DNA from: Deltaproteobacteria bacterium
GTDB lineage: Bacteria > Desulfobacterota > JACPFL01
DNA: 33,670 bases
Assembly: GCA_016183025.1 (NCBI GenBank)
Contig: JACPFL010000026.1
Coordinates: forward strand, 14,859 to 48,528
Reading direction: 5' to 3'
Positions 3,859-30,473 of this stretch are shown one piece after another. Each line of letters opens with the position of its first letter. Position 1 is the stretch's first letter. The translations under genes were made by a program, and so were the position numbers. The notes below the pieces were generated by a model that was not told where the DNA came from, did not search any database, and saw only the letters and a list, made by a program, of their open reading frames with translations.

Positions 3859-4579
3859 CGGCAGGAGTCCGTCTCAGACCATGACCCGCCTCAACTGCCG
3901 CGCGGCCTTCTTCGACCTCGACGGGACGCTCTTTCACTCCCTGGAAGCCTACCGCAGCGCCTTCAACCATGTGCTGGAGCAGTTCGGCCTGAAGCCCGTG
4001 GAACGGGCGGCCTTCGTCCGCTACTTCCGGCACATGGAGAATGGAGGTCGATTCCCCGAGATCCTCACGCAGCTCACGCCCGACGGGGCGGAGGAGACCT
4101 TCCTGCGCCGCTTCCTGGGGGCGTACCGGGAGGTCTTCCCCGGCATGGACCGGGCGTACACCGTCATGGATGACGCGGCCCCGGCGGTGCTGCGGTGTGT
4201 CTCGGCGTCGCTCCCCGTGGCCGTGATCACGGCCCGCCGCGACCCGGTCCCCACGCGCGCCTTGCTCGAGCGGCACGGCTTGGTTCCCTTCATCGCCCTG
4301 GTGGTGCATCCCCGGGAGGGGGTGGCAGTCAAGCCCGCCCCCGACCAGCTCATCGAGGCGGCCCGGCAGCTCGATGTCCCCGCGGAGGCGTGCGTCATGG
4401 TGGGGGACTCCCCCCGCGACATCCGGGCGGGTCGGGCGGCGGGCGCGCGCACCATCGGGGTGACGCCGCCCGGCGGGGCCTGGCAGCATGACGACCTGCA
4501 CCGGGAGTCCCCCGACCTCGTGGTCGACCGCCTGGCCGAGGTGCCGCGGGCCCTGGGGCTCGGGCTGGGGGAGCGCTGA
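3851..4579 (+). CDS. HAD-superfamily phosphatase (phosphoglycolate phosphatase/beta-phosphoglucomutase-like)
   Basis: A 242-residue haloacid-dehalogenase hydrolase. Motif I is FFDLDGTLF with the nucleophile and acid aspartates, motif II is the threonine in AVITARR, motif III the lysine in VAVKPAPDQ, and motif IV VGDSPRDIRAG. An alpha-helical cap domain of about 80 residues sits between motifs I and II, as in the phosphoglycolate phosphatase subgroup. ATG 3851 overlaps ribK; ATG 3881, ten codons in and just before the conserved region, is an alternative start. The substrate cannot be read from sequence. Position behind fni and ribK would allow a role with phosphorylated flavin or isoprenoid intermediates, but that is guesswork. 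The stop shares one base with the next ATG. Confidence 0.85.
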   Translation: MGSGRSPSQTMTRLNCRAAFFDLDGTLFHSLEAYRSAFNHVLEQFGLKPVERAAFVRYFRHMENGGRFPEILTQLTPDGAEETFLRRFLGAYREVFPGMDRAYTVMDDAAPAVLRCVSASLPVAVITARRDPVPTRALLERHGLVPFIALVVHPREGVAVKPAPDQLIEAARQLDVPAEACVMVGDSPRDIRAGRAAGARTIGVTPPGGAWQHDDLHRESPDLVVDRLAEVPRALGLGLGER

Positions 4580-7500
4580 TGCGGGTCGGCGCCCGGATCT
4601 GGTATGCGCTGAGCCCGCTGCAGCGGTTCGCCGGGGTGGCCCTGGCCTTGCTGCTCGGCGTGGCCCTGGCGGCCAGCCTGCTCCTCTCCTCCCTGCTGGG
4701 GGAGACCCTCCTGCGCAAGGCCTCGGCCATGCTCGCGGAGCGGACCTCTGGCCGTCGCATGATCTGGGGGCTCGCATTCCTCGCCGCGGCCGCCGTGTTC
4801 CTCGGGCTGTACCGCTACGTGCAGCGCTCGTTCCGCTTCCACCAGGGCGTGGAGGGCAAGCTCCGGGAGCACTCGCGGGAGCTGGAGGAGCAGGTGGAGG
4901 AGCGGATCGAGGCCTTCCGGGAGACGGCGGGTTTCCTCCAGAACATCTTCGACCACTCCACTGACGCCATCATCGGCACGGACCTGGAGGGGACCGTCAT
5001 CCGCTGGAATCGCGGGGCCGAGCAGCTCTACGGGTGGCAGGCGGAGGAAGTCCTCGGACGCCCTCTCTCCATCGTCCCCTCAGGGATGGAGAAGGAGCTC
5101 GCGCAGGTGCGGGCGGCGGTGCGGACCGGGCGGACCTTCGCGGGGATACGGACCCGGCGGCGGCGCAAGAACGGCACGCTCGTGGACGTGAGCGTCACCC
5201 TGTCGCCACTCTACGGCGCGTCGGGACGGGTGATCGGCCTGTGCGGCATCTCGCGGGACATCTCAACCCTCGTCCACATGGAGGAGGAGCTGCGGGAGCG
5301 CAACCAGGAGCTGCAGGGCCTGAACCGCATCATGGAGGCCGTCAGCCGATCCCTGGAGCTGGACGAAGTCCTGGACGTGGCGCTGGAGCAGGTGCTGGCC
5401 GTCACGGGGCTGGACGCGGGGTACCTCCGGGTCCTGGACGCGGCGGGCCACTACCTGCCCACCATGGCCCGCCGGGGATGCTCCGAGGTCTTCGTGCGGG
5501 CCCACCTCGGAGCCCATGCCCCGGAGCTGGTGGCGGGCGCCGTGGTCGCGGGACGCCGGCCCCTGGTCCTGGACCCGCAGGCCGAGGACCTGGCGCGCGA
5601 TGGGACTGGCCCGGAGGAGGGGCTGCACGCGTTCGCCTGCATCCCGTTGCTCTCAAAGGAGCAGGTACTGGGCGTGCTGGGCGTGGGCAGCCGGGACCCG
5701 GCGCGCCGCTTCTCGCCACGGGAGCTCGACTTCCTCATGTCCGTGGGGAGCCATCTCGGCGTGATCGTCGATAACGCCAAGCTCTTCGCGGAGGTCTCCC
5801 GGAGCCGCCACGAGCTGTCCATCTCGAACGTGGTCTCCTCCACGGTCGGACAGTCGCTCAACCTGGACGAGATGCTGAACCTCGTCCTCATGAAGGTGGT
5901 GGAGCTGCTGGAGTTTGAGGCCGGCTGGATCCGGCTGGTCGGTGAGACCCCTGACGAGCTCGTCCTGCGGGCCCACGTGGGGATCTCGCCGGAATCCGCC
6001 CGCGTGGCCAAGCGCCGGTCGGCCGGCAGAGGGCTGCTGGCCACGGTGCTGGCCCGAGGGGAGGCGGTCGCCATCGACCTGCGTTTCACCGCCCCCGAGG
6101 TGTCCAGCGGTCTGTCGCGTCTGGTGGGGATCGTCACCCTGGTCGAGGTCCCGCTGAAGTCGAAGAGCGGGGTCCAGGGGCTCATGGCCCTGGGGATGCG
6201 GCAGCCCCGGGAGATCTCACCGAGCGTCCTGCAGCTCCTGCAGGCCATCGGGAGCCACATCGCCGTCTCCATCGAGAACACCTGCCTCTACCAGTCGGCC
6301 GAGACGCGCGCCCGCGAGTTCCGGGCCCTGTACGACGTGGGGAAAACGGTGGCCTCCACGCTGGACTCGCGCGAGGTGCTGGACCGGATCGCGGAGCAGG
6401 CACTGGAGGTCATCGGGGCCAAGCACTGCGCGGTCTTCGAGCTGGATCGGGATGGATGGCTCTATCCGCGGGCGGCGAGGGGGATTAGCGGAGAGCAGCC
6501 GGTTCTGCCGGTGCGCCTGGGCCAAGGGGCGTCAGGGGCCGCGGCGCTGGCGCGGCGGCCCGTGTTCAGCGAGGATATTCTCGACGCGCCGCCCCCCGGG
6601 TATGACGACCCGGTGGACGCGGCCGGGCATACCCCGCGGGAGGCGATCGCCCGGTGGGGGCTCCGGTCGGTCCTGGCCGTCCCGCTCATCCGCGGGGACC
6701 AGGTCTTCGGGGCCATCTGCATCTTCTGGGACGAGGTGCGCCCGCGGAGCGAGGGAGAGGTGGCCCTGCTCCAGATGTTCGCCGACCAGGCCGCCATCGC
6801 CATCGACAACGCCCGGCTCATGGAGGCGACCCGGAAGAGCTACCGGGACCTGCAGGTGATCCACGAGATCACCCAGGCTATCGACCGCGGGGCCGATCTG
6901 CAGAGCATCCTGCAGAGCGCGGTGGACAATGTCACCAGGGTGGTCGAGCGCGCGAGGTGCTTCATCCTCCTGCACGATGCGGCCGCGGACGACCTGGCGG
7001 AGGTGGCGCACTCCGAGCGCCAGGCGGTGGAGATGGAGGGGCTCCGGATGGCGGTCCAGACCCGTTCCCTGACGGCGTGGGCCTTCCGGGAGCGTCAGAC
7101 GGTCGTCGTCGAGGACCCCGCGGAGGACGATCGGACGAGCGAGGAGATCCTGCGCCGCCTGGGGCGGCGAGGAGTGATCGCGATCCCCCTGCTCGTCGGG
7201 GAGTGCTGCGTGGGCGTGTTCGGCCTGAGCGACCTGGACGGCCCCCGGCGCTTCACCGGGGAGGAGGTGGAGAAGGCGACCCTCATCGCCCGGCACGCGT
7301 CCATCGCCATCGCCCGGGCCCAGCTCTTCGAGGAGGTGAAGGCGCGCTCCGAACGGCTGGAGGTCCTCGCCCAGGTGAGCCGCGGGCTCGCCTCCACGCT
7401 CGAGCTCCGTCCCCTGGGCGAGCTCGTGCTGGATGCCATCGGGCGGCTGCTCGACGTCCCCATCGTGAACCTCTGGCTCGAGGAGCCCGAGACGGGCGAC

Positions 7501-9390
7501 CTCGTCCTCAGCGCCCGGCGCGGGATGCGGGAGCCCTGGGAGGCCGCCGAGTTCCGCCTGGAACGCGGCTCCGGCCTGGTCGGGTGGATTGTAGAGCACG
7601 GCCAGCCCCTCGGCCTGCCGGACGTGCTGGAGGATCCGCGTTTCGTCCTCAAGGACTGGGCCCACGACCGGGGGGTGACCTCGTACCTCGGGGTCCCCTT
7701 GCACTCGGGGGGGCGGGTCTCAGGGACGATCTCCATCTTCTCCACCCGGCGGCGGGTCTTCACCCAGGACGAGATCGACCTGGCCGTGATGCTCGCCGAC
7801 CACGTGGCGGTCGCCCTCGAGAACGCCCGCCTGTTCCAGGAGGTTCAGGCGCGCAGCGCGCGGCTGGAGGGGCTCATCAGCCTCAGCCGGCGGGTCACGT
7901 CGAGCCTGGAGCTGGAGGCGCTCTTCCAGGCCGTGATGGCGGCCTCCCAGCAGTTCGTCCCCGACGCCGTGATCCGCCTGTGGATGCTCGACCCCGAGGC
8001 GCAGGAGTTGGCCCTCGTGGGAGAGCTGGGGAGCCGGGTGGAGCACGGCGGGACGGTGCTGCGCTTCAAGCACGGCGAGGGACTGGTGGGCTACGTCTGG
8101 GAGCGGCGCGCCCCCTACACCATCGCGGAGATCTGCGAGGACCCCAAGATGGTCAACGTGGAGTGGGCCCGACAGGAGGGGCTGCGGTCGTTCCTGGGGA
8201 TCCCGCTCTGCTACGAGGAGGCCTTCCTGGGCGTGCTGACCATCGTGACCCGCGCGCCCCACCGGTTCGCCGAGGACGAGGTCGTCATCCTGCAGGCCTT
8301 CGCCGACGAGGCATCGGTGGCCCTGCGCAACGCCCAGCTCTTCGACGAGGCCCGGCTGAAGTCCCACCGTCTGGAGACGCTGGCCCGCCTCGGCCAGACC
8401 GTGAACACGGCCCTGGATTTCCCGCGGGTCCTGGAGCTGATCGTCGAGGCTGGGGCCGCCCTGGTCGAGGGGGCGGCCGTGCGCCTGTGGCGCTACCACG
8501 AGGAGTCGCAGGAGCTCACGCTCGTGGCCGAACACGGCTTCCCCCCAGGCGGAGCGTCTTTGATCACCCGGGCGCGTCTGGGCGAGGCGCTCGTGGGGGC
8601 GGTGGAGGCTGAGCGACAGGTCTTCATCAGCTACGACCTGCAGCGTGAACCCCGCTTCGCCGACAAGGCCCGCGCGGAGGAGCAGGGGCTGAAGGCCTAC
8701 ATGGGGATTCCGCTCCTGATCGGCGAACAGCTCGTGGGGCAGATCAGCCTCTTTCGCCGGACCACGCGGCCCTTCGGGCAGGACGAGATCAACCGGATGC
8801 GCATCTTCGCCAACCAGGCGGCCATCGCCCTGCGCAACGCCCGGCTCTTCGAGGAGCTCGAGGAGGCGAACCGGATGCTGCGGGCCCAGGCCGTCACCGA
8901 CGGGCTCACCAACCTGTACAACCACCGCTTCTTCCACGAGGCGCTCGCCAAGGAGGTGGAGCGGGCCCGGCGGTTTGGCACGTCGGTCTCGATGGCCATG
9001 ATCGACATCGACTTCTTCAAGTTCTACAACGACGCCAACGGCCATCCCCAGGGGGACATGGTCCTCCGGGCCGGGGCGGATCTGTTCCGACGATCGGTTC
9101 GGGGCGTGGACGTCGTGGCCCGCTACGGGGGGGAGGAGTTCGCGGTCATTTTCCCGGAGACGTCCAGGGAGGGGGCGTTGCTGGCAGCCGAGAAGCTCCG
9201 GGAGAGGTTCGAGCAGTTTTCCTTCCCCGGGGAGGAGACCCAGCCGGGTGGCCGGCTGACCATCAGCATCGGCGTCTCCGCCTACCCGGACGATGCGTCG
9301 ACCACCGCAGAACTCATCGACCGGGCCGACCAGGCGCTCTACCGGGCGAAGCGAGCCGGGCGCAACCGGGTGATGGCGGCGCAGAGGTGA
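4579..9390 (+). CDS. Membrane PAS / seven-GAF / GGDEF diguanylate cyclase, 1603 residues
   Basis: Predicted to make cyclic di-GMP from two GTP. Order: two transmembrane segments (about 15-38 and 55-75), a coiled stretch, a PAS domain (about 115-235), seven successive GAF domains (starting near 248, 405, 580, 750, 920, 1090 and 1260) and a GGDEF domain (about 1430-1600). The GAF units are joined by long helices ending in similar ENARLFEEV-type motifs, so they look like tandem duplications. The active-site loop is RYGGEEF (GGEEF at 1517-1521), and RGVD just upstream matches the RxxD product-inhibition site. The short gap between the two membrane segments leaves little periplasmic sensor, so sensing is probably cytoplasmic through PAS and GAF. 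ATG 4579 overlaps the HAD stop. No EAL domain is present. Confidence 0.93.
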   Translation: MRVGARIWYALSPLQRFAGVALALLLGVALAASLLLSSLLGETLLRKASAMLAERTSGRRMIWGLAFLAAAAVFLGLYRYVQRSFRFHQGVEGKLREHSRELEEQVEERIEAFRETAGFLQNIFDHSTDAIIGTDLEGTVIRWNRGAEQLYGWQAEEVLGRPLSIVPSGMEKELAQVRAAVRTGRTFAGIRTRRRRKNGTLVDVSVTLSPLYGASGRVIGLCGISRDISTLVHMEEELRERNQELQGLNRIMEAVSRSLELDEVLDVALEQVLAVTGLDAGYLRVLDAAGHYLPTMARRGCSEVFVRAHLGAHAPELVAGAVVAGRRPLVLDPQAEDLARDGTGPEEGLHAFACIPLLSKEQVLGVLGVGSRDPARRFSPRELDFLMSVGSHLGVIVDNAKLFAEVSRSRHELSISNVVSSTVGQSLNLDEMLNLVLMKVVELLEFEAGWIRLVGETPDELVLRAHVGISPESARVAKRRSAGRGLLATVLARGEAVAIDLRFTAPEVSSGLSRLVGIVTLVEVPLKSKSGVQGLMALGMRQPREISPSVLQLLQAIGSHIAVSIENTCLYQSAETRAREFRALYDVGKTVASTLDSREVLDRIAEQALEVIGAKHCAVFELDRDGWLYPRAARGISGEQPVLPVRLGQGASGAAALARRPVFSEDILDAPPPGYDDPVDAAGHTPREAIARWGLRSVLAVPLIRGDQVFGAICIFWDEVRPRSEGEVALLQMFADQAAIAIDNARLMEATRKSYRDLQVIHEITQAIDRGADLQSILQSAVDNVTRVVERARCFILLHDAAADDLAEVAHSERQAVEMEGLRMAVQTRSLTAWAFRERQTVVVEDPAEDDRTSEEILRRLGRRGVIAIPLLVGECCVGVFGLSDLDGPRRFTGEEVEKATLIARHASIAIARAQLFEEVKARSERLEVLAQVSRGLASTLELRPLGELVLDAIGRLLDVPIVNLWLEEPETGDLVLSARRGMREPWEAAEFRLERGSGLVGWIVEHGQPLGLPDVLEDPRFVLKDWAHDRGVTSYLGVPLHSGGRVSGTISIFSTRRRVFTQDEIDLAVMLADHVAVALENARLFQEVQARSARLEGLISLSRRVTSSLELEALFQAVMAASQQFVPDAVIRLWMLDPEAQELALVGELGSRVEHGGTVLRFKHGEGLVGYVWERRAPYTIAEICEDPKMVNVEWARQEGLRSFLGIPLCYEEAFLGVLTIVTRAPHRFAEDEVVILQAFADEASVALRNAQLFDEARLKSHRLETLARLGQTVNTALDFPRVLELIVEAGAALVEGAAVRLWRYHEESQELTLVAEHGFPPGGASLITRARLGEALVGAVEAERQVFISYDLQREPRFADKARAEEQGLKAYMGIPLLIGEQLVGQISLFRRTTRPFGQDEINRMRIFANQAAIALRNARLFEELEEANRMLRAQAVTDGLTNLYNHRFFHEALAKEVERARRFGTSVSMAMIDIDFFKFYNDANGHPQGDMVLRAGADLFRRSVRGVDVVARYGGEEFAVIFPETSREGALLAAEKLRERFEQFSFPGEETQPGGRLTISIGVSAYPDDASTTAELIDRADQALYRAKRAGRNRVMAAQR

Positions 9391-9399
9391 TCGAGGACG

Positions 9400-9681
9400 A
9401 TGGCCAAGTCGATTCGCTTCACGGTGGTCAATTCAGGGGGGCCGCTCGTGGCGACGGCCCAGGTTGAGCTGTTTCGGGGCGTCTATCTCGCCGGGTGGTG
9501 CGTGTTCCGGGAGGGGGATCGCGTGTGGGTCTGGCCGCCCTACCGGGAGGTGGTGGAGACCCCTGCAGGCGGGCGCCGCTTCGTCAGCTATCTGCGCTTC
9601 GACGACCAGAAGACCTTCCAGCGGTGGGCGGACCGGATCCGGGACGAGTACGTCAAGTGGGCGAAGACCCAGGGGGATTGA
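9400..9681 (+). CDS. Small SpoVG-like protein (93 residues)
   Basis: A soluble 93-residue protein with no signal peptide or membrane segment. Its pattern resembles the nucleic-acid-binding SpoVG family: an opening like IRFTVVNSGGPLVATAQVEL, a central strand pair ending in VWVWPPYREV where SpoVG has its LFVAMPSKR segment, and a closing helix with RIRDEYVKW, comparable to the C-terminal NEY helix of SpoVG. Identity is low, so this is a fold-level suggestion from reading alone. It sits ten bases after the diguanylate cyclase gene and overlaps the SAM hydrolase gene by four bases. It could instead be an unrelated small protein of unknown function. Confidence 0.7.
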   Translation: MAKSIRFTVVNSGGPLVATAQVELFRGVYLAGWCVFREGDRVWVWPPYREVVETPAGGRRFVSYLRFDDQKTFQRWADRIRDEYVKWAKTQGD

Positions 9682-10526
9682 GCCGTCCGCCTGGCCGCCC
9701 CTCCCGTCCCGGCCCGCTGGTCACCCTCCTTACCGACTTCGGGGCCCGGGAAGGGTACGTGGGGGCGATGAAGGGGGTCCTGCTCAGCCTCAACCCCCGG
9801 CTCCGCGTGGTGGACCTCTCCCACGACGTCCCGGCCCACGACGTGGGGGCTGGGGCGCTGCTCCTGGCGCAGTGCTACCCCTTCTTCCCTGCGGGGACGA
9901 TTCACGTCGCGGTCGTGGATCCGGGCGTGGGCGGCCCGCGACGGGGCCTGCTCGTTCAGGCCGCGGGGCAGTTCTTCGTGGGGCCGGACAACGGGCTGTT
10001 CACCCTGGTCTATGACCGCGAGGCGCGGGCTCGGGTCCGGGCCCTGACGCGCCCGGCCTACTTCCGCCATCCCGTCAGTTCCACGTTCCACGGACGCGAT
10101 GTCTTCGCCCCCGTGGCCGCCCACCTCTCGCTCGGCGTGCCGCCGACGCGGCTGGGGCCGGCCGTGGTCGACCCCGTGCGCCTTCCCTGGTCGCGCCCCG
10201 TGCCCGGCCCGAGCGGCGTCCGGGGCACGGTCATCCATGTGGACCGGTTCGGGAACCTGATCACCAATATCGGGCAGGAGTCGTGCGGAGGGCGGGAGGT
10301 GGCCGGGGTGGTGCTCGGCGGGCGCCGGGTGCGGGTGCATCGCACGTACGACGATGTGCGGCCCGGTGAGCTGCTGGCGCTGTGGGGGTCGAGCGGGCTG
10401 CTCGAGATCTCGGTCAGCCGGGGGCGGGCAGATCGCCGGCTGAGGGCTCGTGTCGGCACACGGGTGCACGCCCGGTGGCGCGGGCCGGCCCACGGGCGTG
10501 CGCAGGGGTCCGAATCAGAGCTGTGA
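9678..10526 (+). CDS. S-adenosyl-L-methionine hydrolase (adenosine-forming), DUF62/SAM-hydroxide adenosyltransferase family
   Basis: Members use water/hydroxide to split SAM into adenosine and methionine. Family motifs appear in order: LLTDFG near the N-terminus, DLSHDVPAHDV, VVDPGVGGPRRG, GPDNGLFT, TFHGRDVFAPVAAHLS, HVDRFGNLITNI and a C-terminal GELLALWGSSGLLEISV. The protein is about 282 residues, the usual size. Homology begins almost at TTG 9678, which overlaps the upstream stop (TTGA); GTG 9657 is an alternative. The 3' end overlaps the convergent CRP-type gene by 12 bases. The physiological reason for SAM hydrolysis is unknown for the family; SAM-using polyamine genes lie about 12 kb away but are not linked. 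Confidence 0.9.
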   Translation: MSRPPGRPSRPGPLVTLLTDFGAREGYVGAMKGVLLSLNPRLRVVDLSHDVPAHDVGAGALLLAQCYPFFPAGTIHVAVVDPGVGGPRRGLLVQAAGQFFVGPDNGLFTLVYDREARARVRALTRPAYFRHPVSSTFHGRDVFAPVAAHLSLGVPPTRLGPAVVDPVRLPWSRPVPGPSGVRGTVIHVDRFGNLITNIGQESCGGREVAGVVLGGRRVRVHRTYDDVRPGELLALWGSSGLLEISVSRGRADRRLRARVGTRVHARWRGPAHGRAQGSESEL

Positions 10527-12988: not shown

Positions 12989-15067
12989 TCAGGCGCGCAT
13001 CACCTGGAGGCGCTTGAGCGCCTGTTCCACCTCGGTGGCCTCTGCCGCCGTCAGCCCCCCGCCGCCGTAGCGCACCCGGTAGTACAGCCCCGTCAGGCGC
13101 AACACCTCGGCCCCGGCCCCGCGGCTCCGCGCCAGCACGCCCCGCGCGAACTCCAGGGGCGTCTGGTGCGGTTCCCGCCGGAATCCGCGGCGGGCGAGCA
13201 GGCGCAGCATGCGGGCGTAGAAGGCCACCTCGAGCCTGGTCCGGCCCTGGCCGCGTGCTGGCCCCAGGGCGGGCCACCGCCGCCGGGCCAGGCGGTACGT
13301 CACGGCTCCCGCGACCAGGAGGGCGATGACGATGAGCAGCGCCGGGGCCCGCAGGGGGGGAGGCCAGCCCAACCCCGGCACCTTGAGACGCGGCTGGAGC
13401 ACCAGCGCCCGGGTCCCCTCCTGCCACATCTCCCGCAGCGTCCGGAGCAGGGAGAGCTGGTCGCCGAGCTGGTAGTGGATGACATAGCGGTTCCACTGCA
13501 TGCGCAGGGCGTCCAGGTAGTGCATGACCGTGGTGAACACCGGGACCGCCTCGACGTCCGCACGCGGGGTGGGGTCGAAGGGGATCCAGCCGTACCCGGG
13601 GAAGTAGACCTCCACCCACAGGTGCGCGTCGCGCTGGCGGACCAGGTAGTAGCCGCCCACCTCGTTCCACTCCCCGGCCAGGAACCCGCTGACCGGACGA
13701 CTGGGGATTCCCACAGCGCGGAGCATGAGGACCATGGCGGTGGCGAACTGCTCGCAGTAGCCGCGGCGCTGGACGAAGAGGAAGTCCTCCACGGGGCTGT
13801 ACCGCTCATCGCGGTCGATCTTCAGGCTGTAGCGCAGGCGACTCTGCAGGTAGCGCTCGATGGCGAGGACCTTGGCGTAGGCGCTGGGCCTTCCCTCCGT
13901 CAGGCTCCGGGCGAGCGCGGCGGTGCGCTCCTCGCCCGGGGGCACCTGCAGGTAGCGGTCCAGGATCCCGGGCGGGTACGGGGCGGTGTCCGCGGCCAGC
14001 TGCGCCCCGGAGGGCCGCGAGGGGTCGGAGTGCACGACGTAGCTGAGGCGGTCTTGGGGGAGAAACGGTAAGTGGAGGGCGTCTCCGAGGTCGGCGTAGA
14101 GCCCCGGGACCCCCTGCACCAACACCGGGCGGGGCAGGGCGAACAGCACCGTGGTGCTCAACGGCTCCAGCCAGACCTGCTGGCGCACCGTGGGCCCGGG
14201 CGCCGGGCTGCCCACAGGGAAGCCCCCCCGCCACTGCCGCAGGGGGATCAGCCCCCGGTACTGGCTGCGGCTCCACTCCCGGCCGTCGTAGTTCTCGAAG
14301 CTGATCCCCCGCCACAGGGGGCGGGTGCGCAGCGCCGCCCGGTCCTCGACCTCGATCCGCATGACGGCCGTGCTGTCCGAGAGGATCTCGCCCATCGTGC
14401 CGAGCTGAACCCTGTCGGAGAAGCCGACGACCTGGATGGCCGGCGTCGCGCGTTTCTTGAAGAACCCCGCGCCCACCCGCGGGATGACCACGAAGAAGGC
14501 GAGGGTGAAGATGAAGGCGGCCAGGGAGACCGAGGAGGTCACGACCAGGAACGAAGGGGTCAGGAGCGCGGGCGCCCTGACGGCCTCGGCTGGCCGACGG
14601 TCCATCTCGCGGCGGAGGTGAAAGAGGATCAGGCTCCAGGTGCCCACCAGCAGGTACAGGACGAAGATCCCCCCGAAGGCCACGGTGGTGGTCAGGGTCG
14701 AGGCGAGCAGCAGGAAGCAGAAGCTCAGGAGCTGGAGCCGCGCATGGTCCGAGGCGGACTTGGGCTGGAGCAGCAGGTGGAGCTGGAGCAGGATGAAGAA
14801 GTGCCCGAGGGCGATGAGGAACGGCTGCCCGAGCACGAGCAGCTCCACGGTGATCACCGTCAGGGGGATGGCGAGCAGGGCGTTCCAGACCCAGGGGGCC
14901 GGCCGGAAGCGGATGCGCCCGGAGTCAATCCCCCAGGCCGCCGTCACCCCGAGCAGCCCGACGACGAAGGTCCCCCGGCCGAACTCGTTGGTCAGGGCCA
15001 GGAAGGTGAACCCCAGCAGAACGTTGAGGGAGGAAGTCAGGCGAAGCGCCTCCGTCTTCGCCGTCAT
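12989..15067 (-). CDS. Transglutaminase-like membrane protein (TgpA/DUF3488 type)
   Basis: A 692-residue protein with a membrane-embedded N-terminal third (several segments within about 10-205), a large extracytoplasmic transglutaminase-like domain, one further membrane segment near 575-595 and a short DUF4129-like cytoplasmic tail. The thiol-protease-like triad is visible as Cys438 in RGYCEQFATA, His482 in RDAHLWVEV and Asp498 in PFDPTPR. Such proteins are commonly encoded with MoxR ATPases and DUF58 proteins, exactly as here. Its ATG overlaps the DUF58 stop (ATGA). The substrate and reaction are not established. It ends four bases from the convergent sigma-54 activator gene. Confidence 0.9.
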   Translation of the reverse strand: MTAKTEALRLTSSLNVLLGFTFLALTNEFGRGTFVVGLLGVTAAWGIDSGRIRFRPAPWVWNALLAIPLTVITVELLVLGQPFLIALGHFFILLQLHLLLQPKSASDHARLQLLSFCFLLLASTLTTTVAFGGIFVLYLLVGTWSLILFHLRREMDRRPAEAVRAPALLTPSFLVVTSSVSLAAFIFTLAFFVVIPRVGAGFFKKRATPAIQVVGFSDRVQLGTMGEILSDSTAVMRIEVEDRAALRTRPLWRGISFENYDGREWSRSQYRGLIPLRQWRGGFPVGSPAPGPTVRQQVWLEPLSTTVLFALPRPVLVQGVPGLYADLGDALHLPFLPQDRLSYVVHSDPSRPSGAQLAADTAPYPPGILDRYLQVPPGEERTAALARSLTEGRPSAYAKVLAIERYLQSRLRYSLKIDRDERYSPVEDFLFVQRRGYCEQFATAMVLMLRAVGIPSRPVSGFLAGEWNEVGGYYLVRQRDAHLWVEVYFPGYGWIPFDPTPRADVEAVPVFTTVMHYLDALRMQWNRYVIHYQLGDQLSLLRTLREMWQEGTRALVLQPRLKVPGLGWPPPLRAPALLIVIALLVAGAVTYRLARRRWPALGPARGQGRTRLEVAFYARMLRLLARRGFRREPHQTPLEFARGVLARSRGAGAEVLRLTGLYYRVRYGGGGLTAAEATEVEQALKRLQVMRA

Positions 15068-16245
15068 GGCTGCCCCTCGCCGGACCCGGCGCTACCCTCG
15101 AACGCCTCGCCCGCGCTCGTGCCGAGCCGCCTCCCACCGTTCCCGGCGCTCCGGCCCCGGCCATTCCCCGCAGGGCCATCCGGGGTGAGGACCTGCTGGT
15201 ATCGGGCCCGCCATCCGGTGGGCGCGGGATGCAGGGTCACGAGCAGGGTCAGCATGCCCGGGGGCGCCGGCGCCTCGAGGTGGCCCGGGAAGGCCGCCGC
15301 CGGCTCCGGCGCGTAGTCGGCCAGCCGGCGCAGGAGCGCCAGCGCGTGGGCCGCCCCTGTCCCGGCGGGGAGATGGTCGGTGGCGGTCAGGTACTCCACC
15401 TGCAGCCGACGGTCGAGCAGGGCTACCGCCAGCGAGGCGGCCAGGCTCACGGCCGCCTCGACCGCTCCGGGCTCCGCGCCAGCCGGGATCTCCAGGCCGA
15501 GCCGCGCCCGTTGCCCGCCGCCCGCCTCGAACTCCTGCATCATCAGCTTGAGCAGCTTGGCTGAGGTCTTCCAGTGGATCCGGCGCCGGTCGTCCCCGGC
15601 CTGATACTCGCGGAGGCCGAAGAAGTCCTCGCCTTCGGGGGCCTTCCGTCGCCCGGGCTGCTCCGCCACACTGCCGAGCACGCTCCGCAGACGAGCCCCT
15701 ACCCCGTGGATCTCCGGGAAGACCACCAGCTCGCGCTCACAGCGGACCTGCATCGCCTTCACGAAGAGCCCGAAGGGGTAGGTCGTGGCCACGCGGAGCG
15801 TCGAGAGCCGGTACACGCCCCGGCGGGCGACCGTGTGGACCTCGTGCCGCTGCACCGGCTCTCCCGGCGCCACCCGCAGGATGTAGCTCGAGAGTCCGAG
15901 CGGGCGAGGCTCGCCGGGGGGCTCCTCCACGGTGAGGGCGTAGGCCGGGTAGAACCGGTTCGCGCTGGACAGCGCCACCGTGTAGAGGAACGGCGTGCCG
16001 GCGAAGGTGCTCCGCGGCAGGCGGACCTCCGCGCGCAGGCGCTTCAGGCAGAACTCCGAGAGGATCCCCGAGACGACGATGAGGCTCAGCATGGTGGCCA
16101 GGATCAGGTAGAGCAGGTTGTTGCCGGTGTTGATGGAGGCCAGGCCGATCGCGAGCGTCATCATGACGAACTTGGTCCCGTCGGCGGTGAAGCGAAGGGT
16201 GCGCGGGGGGCGGAGCCAGCGGAGCAGCCGGCGGAGCCAGGGCAT
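15064..16245 (-). CDS. DUF58 domain protein, MoxR partner
   Basis: A 393-residue membrane-anchored protein. Two adjacent transmembrane segments lie at about 25-45 and 46-65, followed by a beta-rich region and the DUF58 signature REYQAGDDRRRIHWKTSAK. The C-terminal 40 residues are low-complexity Gly/Arg/Ser. DUF58 proteins often have a von Willebrand A-like fold and work with MoxR AAA+ ATPases in the maturation of other proteins or complexes. It starts seven bases after the moxR stop and overlaps the transglutaminase gene by four bases, so the three are surely co-transcribed. Confidence 0.9.
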   Translation of the reverse strand: MPWLRRLLRWLRPPRTLRFTADGTKFVMMTLAIGLASINTGNNLLYLILATMLSLIVVSGILSEFCLKRLRAEVRLPRSTFAGTPFLYTVALSSANRFYPAYALTVEEPPGEPRPLGLSSYILRVAPGEPVQRHEVHTVARRGVYRLSTLRVATTYPFGLFVKAMQVRCERELVVFPEIHGVGARLRSVLGSVAEQPGRRKAPEGEDFFGLREYQAGDDRRRIHWKTSAKLLKLMMQEFEAGGGQRARLGLEIPAGAEPGAVEAAVSLAASLAVALLDRRLQVEYLTATDHLPAGTGAAHALALLRRLADYAPEPAAAFPGHLEAPAPPGMLTLLVTLHPAPTGWRARYQQVLTPDGPAGNGRGRSAGNGGRRLGTSAGEAFEGSAGSGEGQP

Positions 16246-16252
16246 GGCCGGG

Positions 16253-17242
16253 CTAGGCCGGCGCCGGCACGGAGGTGAGGATCTCCTCGATCAGCCGGTG
16301 CGCGTCGCCGTGATTATGGTCGGCGCCGAAGCGGGCGCGCGGGATGACGCGGTGGGCCAGGACGGCCGGGGCGGCCGCCTTGATGTCGTCGGGCACACAG
16401 TAATCGCGCCCCTCGACGAAGGCCATGGCCTGCCCGACCTTGTAGAGCTGAATGGCCGCCCGCGGGCTGGCTCCGAGCTCGACCAGGGGGGACTCCCGCG
16501 TGGCGCTGATGATCTGCAGCAGGTAGGAGACCAGGGCCTCGTCGACCTTGACCTGCTCCACCAGGACCTGCAGCTCCAGGAGCTCCGCCGCGGAGAGCAC
16601 CTCGGGCAGCTCCTCGGCGGCGTGGGCGAGGCTGGGGTTGCGCACGATCTCCCGCTCTTCGCCCGGTGGCGGGTAGCCCATGCGGATGCGCATGGTGAAC
16701 CGGTCCATCTGCGACTCGGGCAGGGGGTAGGTGCCGTGAAACTCCATCGGGTTCTGCGTGGCCACCACCATGAAGGGCACGGGCAGCGGGTAGGTCATGC
16801 TGTCGATGGAGACCTGCCCGTCGTTCATCGCCTGAAGCAGGCAGCTCTGGGTCTTCGGCGTGGTGCGGTTGATCTCGTCGGCCAGGACGATGTTGGCGAA
16901 CAGCGGCCCCGGGTGGAACTCGAACTCGCCGGTCCGCTGGTTGTACACGGAGACGCCCAGGATGTCCGAGGGGAGCAGGTCGCTGGTGAACTGGATCCGG
17001 CGGAAGGAGCAGCGGAGCGACTTGGCCAGGCACCGGGCCAGGGTGCTCTTGCCCACCCCGGGGACATCCTCGATGAGAAGGTGGCCGCGGGCCAGCAGGG
17101 TGACCACCGCCTGCTTGATGACGTCGGCCTTGCCCAGGATGGCCCGCTCGATGTTGGCCTGGAGGCGCCGGACCTTCACCTGGGAGGGCTCCTCCGCCAC
17201 GTGGGGCGAGCTGGACGGGCTTATGCTAGAAAGGGACGTCAT
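16253..17242 (-). CDS. MoxR-family AAA+ ATPase
   Basis: A 329-residue AAA+ chaperone-like ATPase. Walker A is DVPGVGKST (59-67), Walker B is LADEINR with Asp122/Glu123, sensor 1 is [21 protein letters not shown], and the lid domain carries the GASPRA arginine motif. ATG 17242 lies inside the end of ssb (17-bp overlap), with GGAGG touching the ATG. GTG 17179, nine bases after GGAGGAG and close to the first conserved residues, is a plausible alternative. It energises the DUF58/transglutaminase module encoded just downstream; the target is unknown. Confidence 0.93.
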
Positions 17243-17642
17243 CCTCCGGTCCGCCCTCCATGCCGACCTCGCGGCCCGCAGCCGCGATCTCGGGAACCCT
17301 TCCGCTCTCTCCCGGACTGCCGAGCATGACCATGTTGGTGGCGACGATCTCGGTCGTGTGGCGCTTGTTCCCGTCCCGGTCGTCCCAGGAGCGGGTCTGC
17401 AGCCGGCCCTCGATATAGACCTGCTTGCCCTTGGCGAGGTGCTCCCGGCAGATCTCCCCCAGCTTGCCCCAGGCGACGATCCGGTGCCACTCGGTCCGCT
17501 CCTGGCGTTCGCCGTTCTTGTTGACCCAGGTCTCGTTGGTCGCCAGGTTGAAGTTGGCCACCGCGGTGCCGCTGCTGGTGTACCTGACCTCCGGGTCTGC
17601 CCCAAGTCGGCCGATGAGTATCACTTTGTTGACGCTCGCCAT
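17226..17642 (-). CDS. ssb: Single-stranded DNA-binding protein
   Basis: A 138-residue SSB. It has a full OB-fold starting [21 protein letters not shown], with the usual [14 protein letters not shown] and [16 protein letters not shown] segments, a short flexible linker and the acidic tail ending DDVPF. That tail is the docking site for replication and repair partners. It is the first gene of a minus-strand run and its stop codon lies within moxR. Sharing a transcript with moxR is unusual, because ssb is more often near rpsF/rpsR or uvrA. Confidence 0.97.
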
Positions 17643-25172: not shown

Positions 25173-25742
25173 GTGAAGGGCTCGCTCAGGCGGGAGGTCC
25201 TGGTCAAGGCCCTGGTGGACCGCAATGAGGCCGTCCGCCGCTCGGCGGCGGAGGCGCTCGAGCAGTTCGAGGCCAAGCTCGCGCTGCCGGGACTGATCGA
25301 GTCCTGGCAGCAAGGCGACAAGGTCACCCGGATCAGCATCGTCTACGCCCTGACCCGGATCTACGATGATCGGGCCGACGCCCTCCTGCTCCAATCCCTG
25401 GAGGACCCTACGGAGGACGTCCGGGCGGCCGCGCTGCGGGCGCTCCAGGACCGGCCGGGGGTGGACTACGCCGGCCCCCTGATGAAGCGCCTGGGCGACG
25501 ACAGCAAGGTCATCCGCTGCCTGGCGATCGAAACCCTGGGCTCACTGCGGTGCCGCCGGGCGGCGGAGCACCTGCTTCCCCTGCTGGGGCATCCCGACCT
25601 GGAGGTGGTGCAGCGGACGGTGGTGGCGTTGGGCCGCATGCGGGACAACCGGGCTGAGATCCCGCTGCTCACCCTGGCGGACGTGGAGGACGGCTACACG
25701 CGGAGCCTGGTGATCACGGCGCTGGGCGAGCTGGACCTCTGA
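25173..25742 (+). CDS. HEAT-repeat (PBS-lyase type) protein
   Basis: A 189-residue all-helical repeat protein. About six units of roughly 31 residues repeat a pattern like DPTEDVRAAALRALQD and DDSKVIRCLAIETLGSL, typical of PBS-lyase-like HEAT repeats, which serve as protein-binding scaffolds. There is no catalytic domain, signal peptide or membrane segment. GTG 25173 has GGAG eight bases upstream. The gene ends 14 bases from the end of the convergent HD-GYP gene and lies next to a second, larger HEAT-repeat gene, suggesting a shared pathway. Partner unknown. Confidence 0.85.
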   Translation: MKGSLRREVLVKALVDRNEAVRRSAAEALEQFEAKLALPGLIESWQQGDKVTRISIVYALTRIYDDRADALLLQSLEDPTEDVRAAALRALQDRPGVDYAGPLMKRLGDDSKVIRCLAIETLGSLRCRRAAEHLLPLLGHPDLEVVQRTVVALGRMRDNRAEIPLLTLADVEDGYTRSLVITALGELDL

Positions 25743-25756
25743 CGCCGCCGCGCATC

Positions 25757-27100
25757 CTACAGAAACGCGCCGACGTCGATCCCCTTCAGGGCCGGGTCCA
25801 TCGCGCCCGCGATGACCACGCCGGCCTCCCGCAGGTCGATCTGCCGGGCCTCCGGCAGCCGTCCCCCCTCGCGGTCGAAGATCACCTTCACCGTCGGCCG
25901 GAGCGGGTCCTCGGGGTGAACCCGGGCGACCACGGCCAGCTCGTTGGAGGACAGGCGGACCAGGCTCCCGATGGGGTGCATCCCCATCATGTCGATGAAG
26001 ATGCGGGCGAGGTCCGGGTCGAAGTTCGTCCCCGCCAGGCCGCGGATGATCTCCACGGCCTCGTACGGGGAGTAGCGACGCTGGTAACAGCGCAGGGTCG
26101 TGAGCGCGTCGTAGCAGTCGCCCAGGGCCACGATCATCCCGAACAGGCTGGGGCGGTCGACTTCGGTGAGCGAGGGGTAGCCCTGGAGGTTGTACTGGGC
26201 GTGGTGCTCCAGGACCGCCTGGACCGAGGGCTCGGTGACCCCCTCCATCTTCGCCACGATCTCGGCCCCCGTGATGGGGTGTCGCTTCACCTCCTCGAAC
26301 TCCTGCGGCGCGAGCCGGGCCGGTTTCCGGATGAGGTCGAGGGCGACCAGGGTCTTGCCGATGTCGTGGAGCAGCGCCCCCATGCCGAGCTCGGCGAGCT
26401 GCGCCCCCTTGAGCTTGAGGGCCTCGCCCATGGCGAGCGAGATGATGCAGACGTTCACGGAGTGGTTGAAGGTGTACTCGTCGTAGCTCTTGAGCATCGC
26501 CAGGCCGAGCATGCTGCTCCGGTCGCGGAGCACGTAGTCGGCCATGTCCTGCACGACGCGGCGGGCGCGGTCGGCCCGGGGGATCTTGCCCAGTCGCACG
26601 TCCCGAAAGGCATCGATGACCGTCTGGAGGGCGTCGGCGTAGACCTGGCGAGGGGGGGGGAGCTCCTCGGGGCCCGCGGCGATCTGGCCCACCTCGATGT
26701 GGCGCACGCCGGCGGCCGCCATGACGCCGGCCAGCGCGTCCTTGCCCTCGCTCCCCCCCCGGGCCAGCGCGGTCACGAGGACGCCCAGCTCCTCCACGGT
26801 GACCCCTGGCAGGAAGCTCACCTTCTGGAGGTTGTGCTGGGCGAATCGGGCCGCGAGCTCGGGGAACTTCCCATCGGTGTCGTAGAAGGTCTCCTCCTCG
26901 AACACGAGCAGCCCCTCGACCATGCCGAGGACGAGCCGGGGCTTGCTGGCGAGCAGGCCGGTCAGCAGCAGGTGTGACTCCCGGACCGGCTGGACGATGG
27001 CCGGATGGCCGGCAGGGTAGAGGCTCCGGCCCCGCACGGCGCGGTTCAGCCCCTTCAGGATCCCTTCCAGCTTATCGTGGACCTGGCTCACTTCTGGCAC
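25757..27100 (-). CDS. HD-GYP domain protein with N-terminal LYPxxHP domain
   Basis: A 447-residue protein. Residues 1-145 form a domain with LYPAGHP (27-33) and GVRHIEV (131-137) that is also present in the HEAT protein encoded upstream. Residues 200-375 are an HD-GYP domain, the class that hydrolyses cyclic di-GMP: NHSVNVC (His213), LLHDIGK (His245, Asp246, Lys249), HPITGAE (His274), HH (299-300), GYP (307-309) and GDCYDAL (Asp328). The usual HHExxDGxGYP is HHAQYNLQGYP, so the metal-binding histidines remain but the intervening acidic and glycine residues are changed. Activity may be altered. GTG 27100 has GAGGG seven bases upstream. It lies 47 bp after the HEAT gene. Confidence 0.9.
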   Translation of the reverse strand: MPEVSQVHDKLEGILKGLNRAVRGRSLYPAGHPAIVQPVRESHLLLTGLLASKPRLVLGMVEGLLVFEEETFYDTDGKFPELAARFAQHNLQKVSFLPGVTVEELGVLVTALARGGSEGKDALAGVMAAAGVRHIEVGQIAAGPEELPPPRQVYADALQTVIDAFRDVRLGKIPRADRARRVVQDMADYVLRDRSSMLGLAMLKSYDEYTFNHSVNVCIISLAMGEALKLKGAQLAELGMGALLHDIGKTLVALDLIRKPARLAPQEFEEVKRHPITGAEIVAKMEGVTEPSVQAVLEHHAQYNLQGYPSLTEVDRPSLFGMIVALGDCYDALTTLRCYQRRYSPYEAVEIIRGLAGTNFDPDLARIFIDMMGMHPIGSLVRLSSNELAVVARVHPEDPLRPTVKVIFDREGGRLPEARQIDLREAGVVIAGAMDPALKGIDVGAFL

Positions 27101-27147
27101 GTGGCGTCCCTCTGCCGCACCTCTCTCCTGGGCCCCGCGTCCGGTCC

Positions 27148-28890
27148 CTAGGACCGGCCTCCCGGCTGCATCTTGGCCGCACGCAGGGCGCGCTGGCAGA
27201 TCTCCCGGACCGGCGCGTGACGGTCGGTGGCGGCGGCCTCCAGCGCCCGGAGCGCCGGGAAGCTCCCGATCTCCGCCAGGGCGGCGGCCGCGGCGACGCG
27301 CAGCTCGTTGACCCGCACCCGCCGGAGCCAGGAGCGGCTGCGGAGCACCTTGGCCAGGGGCTCCACCACCTCCTCCCCGCCGATCCGCCCCAGGGCGCGG
27401 ATCGCCTCCCGGCGGACCTGGAACTTCCAGGAACGCGTCGAGCGCGGACCCACGAGCCGGAGCAGGGCTGGCGCCGCGGCGCGGTCGCCCATGGCCCCCA
27501 GGGCCGCGATGGCCTCCAGGCAGAGCTGATGGTCACGGGCGCCCAGGCAGGCGGTGAGCAGGCGACTGGCCTCCCGGGTGCCGATCCTGCCCAGGCCCCG
27601 GACCGCTGCCCGCTTGACCCGAATGTCGGGGTGCGCGAGCCCCGGGCGCAGGCACTGGACCGCCCCCGGGCCCCCCAGTTCGGTGATGACCGCGGCCGCA
27701 TTCTGGGCCATCTCCCACCGCCGGTCGCTCAAGGCGCCGGCGAGCAGGGGGAACAGGGCTTCTGTCCGGCCCGCCACCAGCGGGAGCAGCTTGGAGCGCT
27801 GCAGAGGATCCCCGATGAGCAGGCGCCGCACGATGGCCGGCAACGGCGCATCCCCCAGCGCCGCCAGGACCTGCAGGATCGGCTGCTCCTCGGCACGGAG
27901 CCCTCGGGCCACGCGCGTGATGAGGTCGTCGACCACGGCCGGGTCGCACAGGGCCCGGAGGGCCTCCTCCGCCCGAGCCCGAATCTCCGCGTCGGGCTTG
28001 ACCGCGGGGCTCGCATGGCGGGCGAAGGCGACCGGGGCTCCGAGCATCGCCTCGAGCCCCGTCAGGGCATAGAGCGACTGGGCCAGGGAGAGGACCTCGC
28101 CGGCCAGCGGCATGTACCGCCTGGGTTCCTGCTCGGCCTCGAGCCGGGAGAGGAGCTGGTCGAGCTGGGCCGACTGGGACGGGGGGAGCTTGGGAGCCGG
28201 CTCTGCGGAAGGTGGTTCCTTCCCCGCCTCCGGCGACGCCTCGGCTTCGGAGGACATGGGCGGCTGCTCGGCCTGCAGCTCCATGGCCTCCATGGCCAAG
28301 CCCCCCTCAAACTGGTTGGTCAGCTCCTCCGCCGCCGGCGGCTCCACCTCGCCGACCTCGGCCTCGACCCGTTCCTCGCGCGCCTGGAACCCGGCCTGCT
28401 CCGGGGCCTCTCCGCTGCTCGCGGTCCCTTCCTGCTGGATCAGCTTCTCGAACGCGCTCTCCTCGATCCGGATGTGCTGGACGCCGCGATCCCTCAGGAT
28501 CTGGGCCGCGCCGCCGAGCTTCCGGACCTCCTCGGCCTCGAGGCTCAAGAGCTCGACCAGGTGGAGGAGGTCCTGGGCCGTGAGCTGCGGGGTCATCTCG
28601 AAGATACGGGCCCGACGGCGGAAGAGATCCTCCGCGAGGGCACGGAGCACGGCGTTCTGCAGAGCCAGGGCGGCCCCCTGCACGGCGAAGCCACGGGCGC
28701 CGATGCTGAACTGGAGCCCGTCGCCCGGCAGCAGGGCCCGGATGGTCGCCGCGCACCGCTCGAGCGAGGCGCCCCGCGCAGGATGAGTGGAGGGGTAGAG
28801 CTTGCAGGCCCGCAGGGCCTTGGCGATCTCCAGCAGGGCGTCCTCGGCCTTCCGGGCAGCGGCCCCGGGGGACTCGGGGCGGGCGATCAT
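27148..28890 (-). CDS. HEAT-repeat protein with N-terminal LYPxxHP domain
   Basis: A 580-residue cytoplasmic protein. Residues 10-145 carry the same domain as the neighbouring HD-GYP protein (LYPSTHP at 31-37, GVQHIRI at 136-142). A Glu/Pro/Ala-rich linker follows (about 155-260), then a helical region and at least eight HEAT/PBS-lyase-like repeats to the C-terminus, including DIRVKRAAVRGLGRIGTREA and RREAIRALGRIGGEEV. No enzyme motif is visible, so it is probably a scaffold. ATG 28890 lies 37 bases after the expected transcript start, with GAGGA upstream; ATG 28935 is inside the -10 box and cannot be used. It is first in a two-gene operon with the HD-GYP gene. Confidence 0.85.
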   Translation of the reverse strand: MIARPESPGAAARKAEDALLEIAKALRACKLYPSTHPARGASLERCAATIRALLPGDGLQFSIGARGFAVQGAALALQNAVLRALAEDLFRRRARIFEMTPQLTAQDLLHLVELLSLEAEEVRKLGGAAQILRDRGVQHIRIEESAFEKLIQQEGTASSGEAPEQAGFQAREERVEAEVGEVEPPAAEELTNQFEGGLAMEAMELQAEQPPMSSEAEASPEAGKEPPSAEPAPKLPPSQSAQLDQLLSRLEAEQEPRRYMPLAGEVLSLAQSLYALTGLEAMLGAPVAFARHASPAVKPDAEIRARAEEALRALCDPAVVDDLITRVARGLRAEEQPILQVLAALGDAPLPAIVRRLLIGDPLQRSKLLPLVAGRTEALFPLLAGALSDRRWEMAQNAAAVITELGGPGAVQCLRPGLAHPDIRVKRAAVRGLGRIGTREASRLLTACLGARDHQLCLEAIAALGAMGDRAAAPALLRLVGPRSTRSWKFQVRREAIRALGRIGGEEVVEPLAKVLRSRSWLRRVRVNELRVAAAAALAEIGSFPALRALEAAATDRHAPVREICQRALRAAKMQPGGRS

Positions 28891-29033: not shown

Positions 29034-29062
29034 TTCCCCGGGCTACCGGGTGCCATTATAAT
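29034..29062 (+). promoter_or_regulatory. Promoter of radA-serS, with weak -35
   Basis: Perfect TATAAT (29057-29062) with only TTCCCC (29034-29039) at the -35 position, 17 bp upstream. Start near 29069. A poor -35 with an upstream CRP-type site is what an activator-dependent promoter would look like. Confidence 0.5.
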
Positions 29063-29105
29063 GACGCTGAGATCGTCGCATCTCCGATCTGAAGGATGGT
29101 GGCCC

Positions 29106-30473
29106 ATGGTCCGGATCCGGACTGTCTACACGTGCCAGGGGTGTGGCTACAAGAGCCCGCGATGGCTGGGGAGGTGCCCGGACTGTGGCCAGTGGAACAC
29201 CCTGGTCGAGGAACGGGTCGTGGAGCCGGGCCGAGAACGGCGCGGTGCCAGGCCCGCACAGGACCCCCGCGTGGCTCCGCTCCCGATCGGGGCGATCCAG
29301 AGCCAGGCCGAGGCCCGGGTCCGCACCGGGATCGGCGAGCTGGACCGCGTGCTGGGCGGCGGGATCGTCCCGGGCTCCCTGGTGCTGATCGGCGGGGACC
29401 CGGGGATCGGGAAGAGCACGCTGCTGCTGCAGGCCATGGAGCAGCTGGCCCGCGACGGGCGCACGGTCCTCTACGTCTCGGGGGAGGAGTCTCCCCAGCA
29501 GATCAAGCTCCGCGGCGAGCGTCTGGGGGTCGGCGCGCCGACCCTCTACGTCCTGGCCGAGACCTGCCTGGAGCGGCTGCTGGAGGAGGTCGAGCGCCTG
29601 TCGCCGGCCGTGCTGGTGATCGACTCCATCCAGACGATCTACACCGCCGAGGTCGAGAGCGCCCCCGGGAGCGTGAGCCAGGTGCGGGAGACCTGCGGGA
29701 AGCTCATGACGGTGGCCAAGGGCCGGGGCATCTCGACCTTCCTGATCGGCCACGTGACCAAGGAGGGGGCCATCGCCGGCCCGCGGGTCCTCGAGCACAT
29801 GGTGGACACGGTCCTCTACTTCGAGGGGGACCGCGGCCATCCCTATCGGATCCTCCGGGCGGTGAAGAACCGCTTCGGCTCCACCAACGAGCTGGGCGTG
29901 TTCGCCATGAAGGAGGTCGGCCTGGAGGAGGTCACCAACCCCTCCGAGCTCTTCCTGTCGGAGCGCCCGCTGGGCGTCTCGGGCTCGGTGGTGGTCCCGA
30001 GCCTGGAGGGGACCCGGCCGATCCTGGTAGAGCTGCAGGCCCTGGTCTCGGGATCGAGCCTCGCCCTGCCGCGCCGCACGACGATGGGGGTGGACCACAA
30101 CCGGGTGGGCCTGCTCGTGGCGGTCCTCGAGAAGAAGGTGGGGCTGCACCTGCTGAACCAGGACATCTTCGTGAACGTGGCTGGCGGGATCAAGCTGGTG
30201 GAGCCCGCCGTGGACCTGGGGATCGTGGTCGCGGTGGCCTCGAGCTTTCTGGAGCGGCCCGTGGACGCGCGGACCGTGGTGATGGGGGAGGTGGGGTTGG
30301 CGGGCGAGATCCGGGCCGTGGCCCAGGTGGAGGTGCGGATCCGGGAGGCCGAGAAGCTCGGCTTCACCCGGGCCCTGCTGCCGGAGCGCAACCTCGGCCG
30401 GCTGACCCTCACCTCGGCCATTGACCTGGTAGGGGTCTCCGCCGTGAAGGATGCCCTGGAGGTCCTCTTCTGA
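29106..30473 (+). CDS. radA: DNA repair protein RadA (Sms)
   Basis: A 455-residue RecA-like motor that aids branch migration in recombinational repair. It has an N-terminal zinc finger (Cys10, Cys13, Cys24, Cys27), Walker [11 protein letters not shown] (96-105), Walker [10 protein letters not shown], the RadA-specific KNRFG (254-258), and a C-terminal Lon-like domain (about 290-455). ATG 29106 is right for the family opening; an in-frame ATG at 29061 overlaps the -10 box. Its stop overlaps the serS ATG by one base. Confidence 0.97.

Follow-up and report, generated by a model that had tools for sequence, protein, structure and literature searches.

The HD-GYP protein P0001 and the neighbouring HEAT protein P0002 have homologous N-termini. 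Both begin with a domain of about 140 residues that contains a LYPxxHP motif (here the N-domain), and their remaining parts are unrelated, being HD_5 in one and HEAT_2 in the other. Both points agree with a first-pass annotation of the window, the whole stretch of 33,670 nucleotides that was analysed. On sequence evidence, the N-domains may well dock with one another, which would link a divergent phosphodiesterase and a HEAT scaffold, a reading that is held with slightly better than even confidence. The features of the locus are as follows.

25173..25742 (+): third HEAT-repeat protein P0003, 189 aa, without the N-domain; HEAT_2 E 2.5e-25
25757..27100 (-): HD-GYP protein P0001, 447 aa; open reading frame with GTG as the first possible start in the open frame
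26009..26497 (-): HD-GYP catalytic domain of P0001; PF13487 HD_5 E 6.2e-18
26687..27094 (-): N-terminal LYPxxHP domain of P0001, residues 3-138; profile match and AlphaFold2 model
27101..27147 (-): intergenic gap of 47 bp between the co-directional P0002 and P0001 genes; the orthologues mostly have a 4-bp overlap
27148..28890 (-): HEAT protein P0002, 580 aa, encoded by the first of the two paired genes; open reading frame with longer alternative starts up to 29025, HEAT_2 E 1.5e-25, pLDDT 86.3
27169..28182 (-): HEAT alpha-solenoid of P0002, residues 237-574; Pfam HEAT_2/HEAT_PBS and an all-helical high-confidence model
28216..28443 (-): linker of P0002, predicted disordered, residues 150-225; pLDDT <50
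28459..28869 (-): N-terminal LYPxxHP domain of P0002, residues 8-144; profile match and predicted elements

The common N-terminal domain

Homology: BLASTP of P0001 against P0002 aligns only a 25-residue LYPxxHP block (E 0.012), and a global alignment of the two N-termini gives z=4.6, with 1 of 2000 shuffles equally high. Since BLASTP on this one pair could not settle the question, families of N-termini were collected from genomes of the same phylum (20 HD-GYP and 18 HEAT) and profiles were used. The profile comparison, which the first-pass annotation had named as a check on its common N-terminal domain, finds significant similarity and bears the domain out: hhalign of the HD-GYP and HEAT profiles covers 132 columns with a probability of 99.6% and E 6.5e-24, against 1.2% for the reversed control. 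An HMM from the HEAT N-termini alone recovers P0001 (E 8.8e-18), one from the HD-GYP N-termini alone recovers P0002 (E 3.5e-13), and P0001 directly matches the HEAT proteins of several relatives (best E 9.6e-8). The homologous stretch comprises residues ~5-142 of P0001 and ~9-146 of P0002.

Fold: The AlphaFold2 model of the P0001 N-domain, made with 137 homologues, has a pLDDT of 92.5 and a pTM of 0.86. Its first half contains helices 3-27 and 33-50 and strands 56-61, 64-67, and 70-72. The second half comprises helices 75-88, 102-113, and 120-129, a strand at 93-96 before helix 102-113, and a last strand at 135-138. In the full-length model of P0002, the first half of the N-domain has helices 8-31 and 37-53 and strands 59-64, 67-70, and 73-75, and the second half consists of helix 80-91, strand 94-99, helices 105-115 and 119-134, and strand 140-144. 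Compared by element order, helices and strands follow identically in the two models, both of high confidence; different folds had been named earlier as evidence against a common domain. As modelled, the N-domain is thus an alpha/beta domain of ~140 residues with a common fold in P0001 and P0002. Its middle, described in the first-pass annotation as glycine-rich, is really a beta hairpin. The YPxxHP residues are strongly conserved (Y28 99%, P29 87%, H32 91%, and P33 90%), and in the P0001 model the motif sits where the first two helices join.

Known relatives: Pfam finds HD_5/HD in P0001 and HEAT repeats in P0002 and P0003, the latter at 89.7 and 89.0 bits for HEAT_2 with a Pfam cut-off of 27.7 bits. 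The first ~140 residues of P0001 and P0002 have no match in Pfam or NCBIfam. In a Pfam scan of 137 N-domains, no family matched more than one member and all matches were weak, RecX being a single weak match. Named Pfam N-terminal domains (DUF3391, GAF, PAS, MshEN, and others) gave no supported match. Foldseek returned zero matches at E <=0.001 in PDB and the viral library BFVD, and a PDB sequence search gave no convincing relative. The PDB sequence matches with E near 1e-6, a cytochrome trimer and Octarellin, are partial and multi-stretch and come from an engineered tandem and a designed protein. PelD, which provides the top Foldseek matches, was rejected as a relative at a TM of <0.25. MshEN, a c-di-GMP domain of ~145 aa that one M. 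xanthus HD-GYP also carries (PMC8844925), was considered as well, and it has no supporting Pfam match. As the first-pass annotation had noted, the domain carries no known name in the libraries searched; no description was found in Pfam, NCBIfam, PDB, BFVD, or the open-access literature, and it may exist under another name.

The gene pair and other carriers of the domain

Gene order: Loci with enough flanking sequence were picked by HD-GYP similarity, and the sample therefore represents the HD-GYP family and not all bacteria; in 71 of the 72 such loci, all from named relatives, N-HEAT is the gene immediately upstream of N-HD-GYP. The commonest spacing is a 4-bp overlap, typical of translationally coupled partners. 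The pair is kept at 30-40% identity and across different phyla while the flanking genes change. The P0003 gene is convergent with the HD-GYP gene, 14 bp from its stop, and in 57 of 77 loci the N-HD-GYP gene is likewise followed by a small HEAT gene in convergent orientation, in line with the third HEAT protein that had been described as facing the pair. The operon proposed in the first-pass annotation stands for the N-HEAT/N-HD-GYP pair; the P0003 gene, being on the opposite strand, is outside it. In the window radA adjoins the pair at 29061-30473 (+), and the same divergent upstream radA is present in 26 of 65 loci. The window also encodes a SAM hydroxide adenosyltransferase (SAM_HAT) family protein at 9495-10526 (+), and genes for a MoxR ATPase, a DUF58 protein, and a TgpA-like transglutaminase side by side at 12989-17605 (-).

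Distribution: Named relatives are found among the former Deltaproteobacteria, Desulfuromonadales included (Geobacter, Geotalea, Desulfuromonas, and Geothermobacter), and in Methylomirabilota/NC10; further ones are single MAGs with the label Nitrospirae or Actinomycetota. When genomes were drawn evenly from the window's phylum, the N-domain was present in 81 of 198, mostly as adjacent pairs; in the phylum of locus L114 it was present in 38 of 95. The window's genome has exactly two copies, those of P0001 and P0002, as has each of four genomes reached via the loci labelled Nitrospirae, Actinomycetota, and Methylomirabilota/NC10. A plasmid search gave HD-part matches only, among the matches listed. 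A tree of 154 N-domains, quickly made from few columns and with weak individual branches, separates HD-type from HEAT-type copies with 2 label changes, against 51 when shuffled. This split indicates one ancient duplication and then inheritance as a pair, as of two subunits.

HEAT proteins: P0002 shares the HEAT repeat solenoid with HEAT/PBS-lyase repeat proteins such as NblB and the CpcE-like proteins. In contrast to these, it has the N-domain and a long linker, and it scores far below their curated cut-offs.

Other architectures: A survey of domain partners in other genomes, which had also been suggested at the outset, finds the N-domain with GGDEF-AAA-HEAT, with cNMP-PilZ, and with a PAS-histidine kinase. 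Chains of ~1400 residues comprising GGDEF, an AAA ATPase, two tandem N-domains, and HEAT are present in L219, L220, and many loci of the L114 phylum, with the AAA domain confirmed by Pfam in L219, L220, and L222 only. The tandem N-domains are found in nearly all complete GGDEF-AAA-N-N-HEAT chains. In L223, the N-domain is followed by PAS-HisKA-HATPase in one chain. The recurring partners are HEAT and domains that make, degrade, or bind cyclic dinucleotides, and N-domains recurrently come in twos, whether in cis or in trans.

Several carriers have further features of their own. L219, L239, L240, L251, and L255 have two adjacent and often overlapping genes, each encoding a full GGDEF-(AAA)-N-N-HEAT protein of ~1400-1500 aa, that is, a tandem pair of giant cyclases. 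A single chain of 1680 aa at L221:7014-12056 contains the N-domain, HEAT, cNMP-binding, and PilZ. The N-domain proteins of ~740 aa at L229:6623-8878, L230:5829-8057, and L238:5404-7629 have no Pfam match; their C-termini match GGDEF by profile (95%) and lack the GGDEF motif. Other GGDEF and PilZ proteins are encoded in the window's genome. One protein of 1603 aa at 4579-9390 (+) of the window, 16 kb from the HD-GYP gene, comprises PAS, about seven GAF, and a C-terminal GGDEF.

The HD-GYP active site

P0001 consists of the N-domain (1-142), a linker, the HD-GYP domain (202-372), and a C-terminal tail (373-447) that is kept across the family alignment. Its metal ligands are H213, H245, D246, H274, H299, H300, and D328, and its GYP motif lies at 307-309. 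The seven ligands (H...HD...H...HH...D) and the GYP triad (G307 Y308 P309) are present without exception in all 96 family members, P0001 included. By sequence, the catalytic domain resembles PmGH of Persephonella marina (PDB 4mcw; E 1.9e-44), with which residues were equated by HMM alignment, and the equivalents of PmGH D183, K225, D308, and R314 are conserved in the family. In contrast to PmGH, which is trinuclear with a GAF input, P0001 has neither the third-metal glutamate nor GAF. At the PmGH E185 position, the carboxylate of the trinuclear (E/D-T-G) subgroup is absent from P0001, which has Y209, and Tyr is present in 95 of 96 members. The tyrosine and the seven conserved ligands place the family in the Y/F (dinuclear) subgroup, which was defined along with the trinuclear one by Bellini et al. 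(PMC4159591). Y/F enzymes, including V. cholerae V-cGAP3 (PDB 5z7c), likewise have HD_5, the seven ligands, and GYP, and V-cGAP3 also has Tyr at the E185 position.

The P0001 family differs from the other Y/F enzymes in having the new N-domain instead of other inputs, and in the motif. The full HHExxDGxGYP signature is replaced by HHxxY[DN]xxGYP, P0001 itself having HHAQYNLQGYP. Among N-domain HD-GYPs whose motif could be read, none of 110 has Glu after HH; of 15 other HD-GYPs from the same loci 13 have it, and the remaining two come from the same kind of gene pair, their N-domain having fallen below threshold. The family is therefore called divergent, not canonical, and since the HHE glutamate and DG are missing, its activity or substrate may differ. 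At the position of PmGH K317, which reads guanine O6 (PMC4159591), most members have Gln (86 of 114), compared with none of the 16 other HD-GYPs whose motif was readable. The new N-domain and the altered active site thus occur together. The altered site could mean a different substrate, for which cGAMP is the obvious candidate (PMC8177086), or a different kind of control. The family is probably a divergent two-metal cyclic-dinucleotide phosphodiesterase, which may act on c-di-GMP or cGAMP.

Proposed docking and alternative readings

In the favoured reading, P0001 and P0002 would be two subunits of one cyclic-dinucleotide signalling module. The N-domain would serve for docking and oligomerisation, with the copy on the HEAT protein associating with the copy on the HD-GYP protein. 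The HEAT solenoid on its flexible linker would place and regulate the HD-GYP phosphodiesterase beside a client or signal, and P0003 is a likely further partner. The computed domain homology and predicted fold, gene pairing, metal ligands, and second-messenger partners suggest physical pairing of the N-domains, phosphodiesterase activity, and regulation by the HEAT protein. The undescribed signalling complex proposed in the first-pass annotation likewise appears plausible from the strict pairing, the tandem N-domains of the fusions, and the cyclic-dinucleotide partners. If N-domains function pairwise, two tandem copies within single chains would be expected. The tandem copies were also considered as one HD-type plus one HEAT-type; no such split was found, which counts against docking as stated. 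A conserved operon can mean common function without physical contact. In RpfG complexes of Xanthomonas, as cited in PMC4877007 and PMC4159591, an HD-GYP similarly acts with GGDEF and PilZ proteins; in these complexes the contact is via the GYP motif, not via a common N-terminal domain or HEAT scaffold.

Other readings have to be weighed, some of them compatible with each other. The N-domain could be a small-molecule or metabolite sensor that binds through YPxxHP, each protein passing the same ligand signal to its own output. Its place at the N-terminus of the PAS histidine kinase of L223 and of the HD-GYP is the usual one for input domains, the motif is strongly conserved at a helix-helix junction, and the top Foldseek matches are PelD, though at a non-significant probability of <=0.10. 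The sensor reading is nevertheless rather unlikely, as the motif could equally be conserved for structure, no known ligand-binding fold matches the domain, and the GGDEF-AAA fusions have it mid-chain, in tandem, before HEAT. A mere tandem neighbourhood, in which a duplicated start region has no joint function and vertical inheritance alone keeps the genes together, is very improbable. The divergent radA does show that gene order is partly conserved in general, but the pair persists in nearly all loci at low identity, in different phyla and changing surroundings, and the N-domain is strongly conserved in both proteins and reused in other signalling proteins.

Two further readings concern the enzyme. 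Silent HD-GYP enzymes usually lose metal ligands. P0001 could lack catalysis and instead serve as a receptor or regulator, binding a cyclic dinucleotide and signalling via the HEAT protein; the loss of the HHE glutamate in every member with a readable motif and the frequent Gln in place of the Lys that reads guanine agree with this, and Bd1817 is a precedent (PMC8177086). With all seven ligands, GYP, and the equivalents of the four PmGH residues kept, such a role is improbable. The enzyme could also prefer cGAMP to c-di-GMP, a reading compatible with docking that is on the unlikely side. It is suggested by the glutamine at the K317 position, frequent in this family and absent from the 16 other HD-GYPs compared, and by Geobacter, a genus that has the module and uses cGAMP (PMC8835794). 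A glutamine-based selectivity is proposed for the cGAMP-preferring HD-GYP PmxA of Myxococcus xanthus (PMC8177086); that glutamine may sit elsewhere than the K317 position, and V. cholerae cGAMP enzymes lack it (PMC8177086). PmxA, a membrane protein, carries Cache and HAMP domains (PMC4877007) and not this N-domain, an architecture that rules it out as a family member.

The docking reading may be extended tentatively, its parts taken jointly being less than even in likelihood. The N-domain would be a new fold, pairing with a further copy of itself or with the sister domain and forming the assembly unit of N-HEAT with N-HD-GYP for degradation, or of a one-chain GGDEF-AAA-N-N-HEAT for synthesis. 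The HD-GYP active site would be remodelled and its dinucleotide specificity altered, possibly to cGAMP.

HD-GYP signalling and HEAT scaffolds are already known kinds. In the libraries and open-access papers searched, no description was found of the common domain with its apparently unmatched fold, of the strict gene pairing, of the active site that changes along with the domain, or of an HD-GYP with HEAT partners. It has long been asked how a cyclase or phosphodiesterase is restricted to its own targets. If one dedicated domain is carried by a phosphodiesterase, by a HEAT scaffold, and elsewhere by a diguanylate cyclase, this would offer a general route to local complexes. The module is present in Geobacter, Geotalea, and Desulfuromonas, some of them cultured, and is thus open to experiment. 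Metal respiration in Geobacter is under cGAMP control (PMC6456294, PMC8835794), and the module supplies candidate cyclic-dinucleotide phosphodiesterases in this genus.
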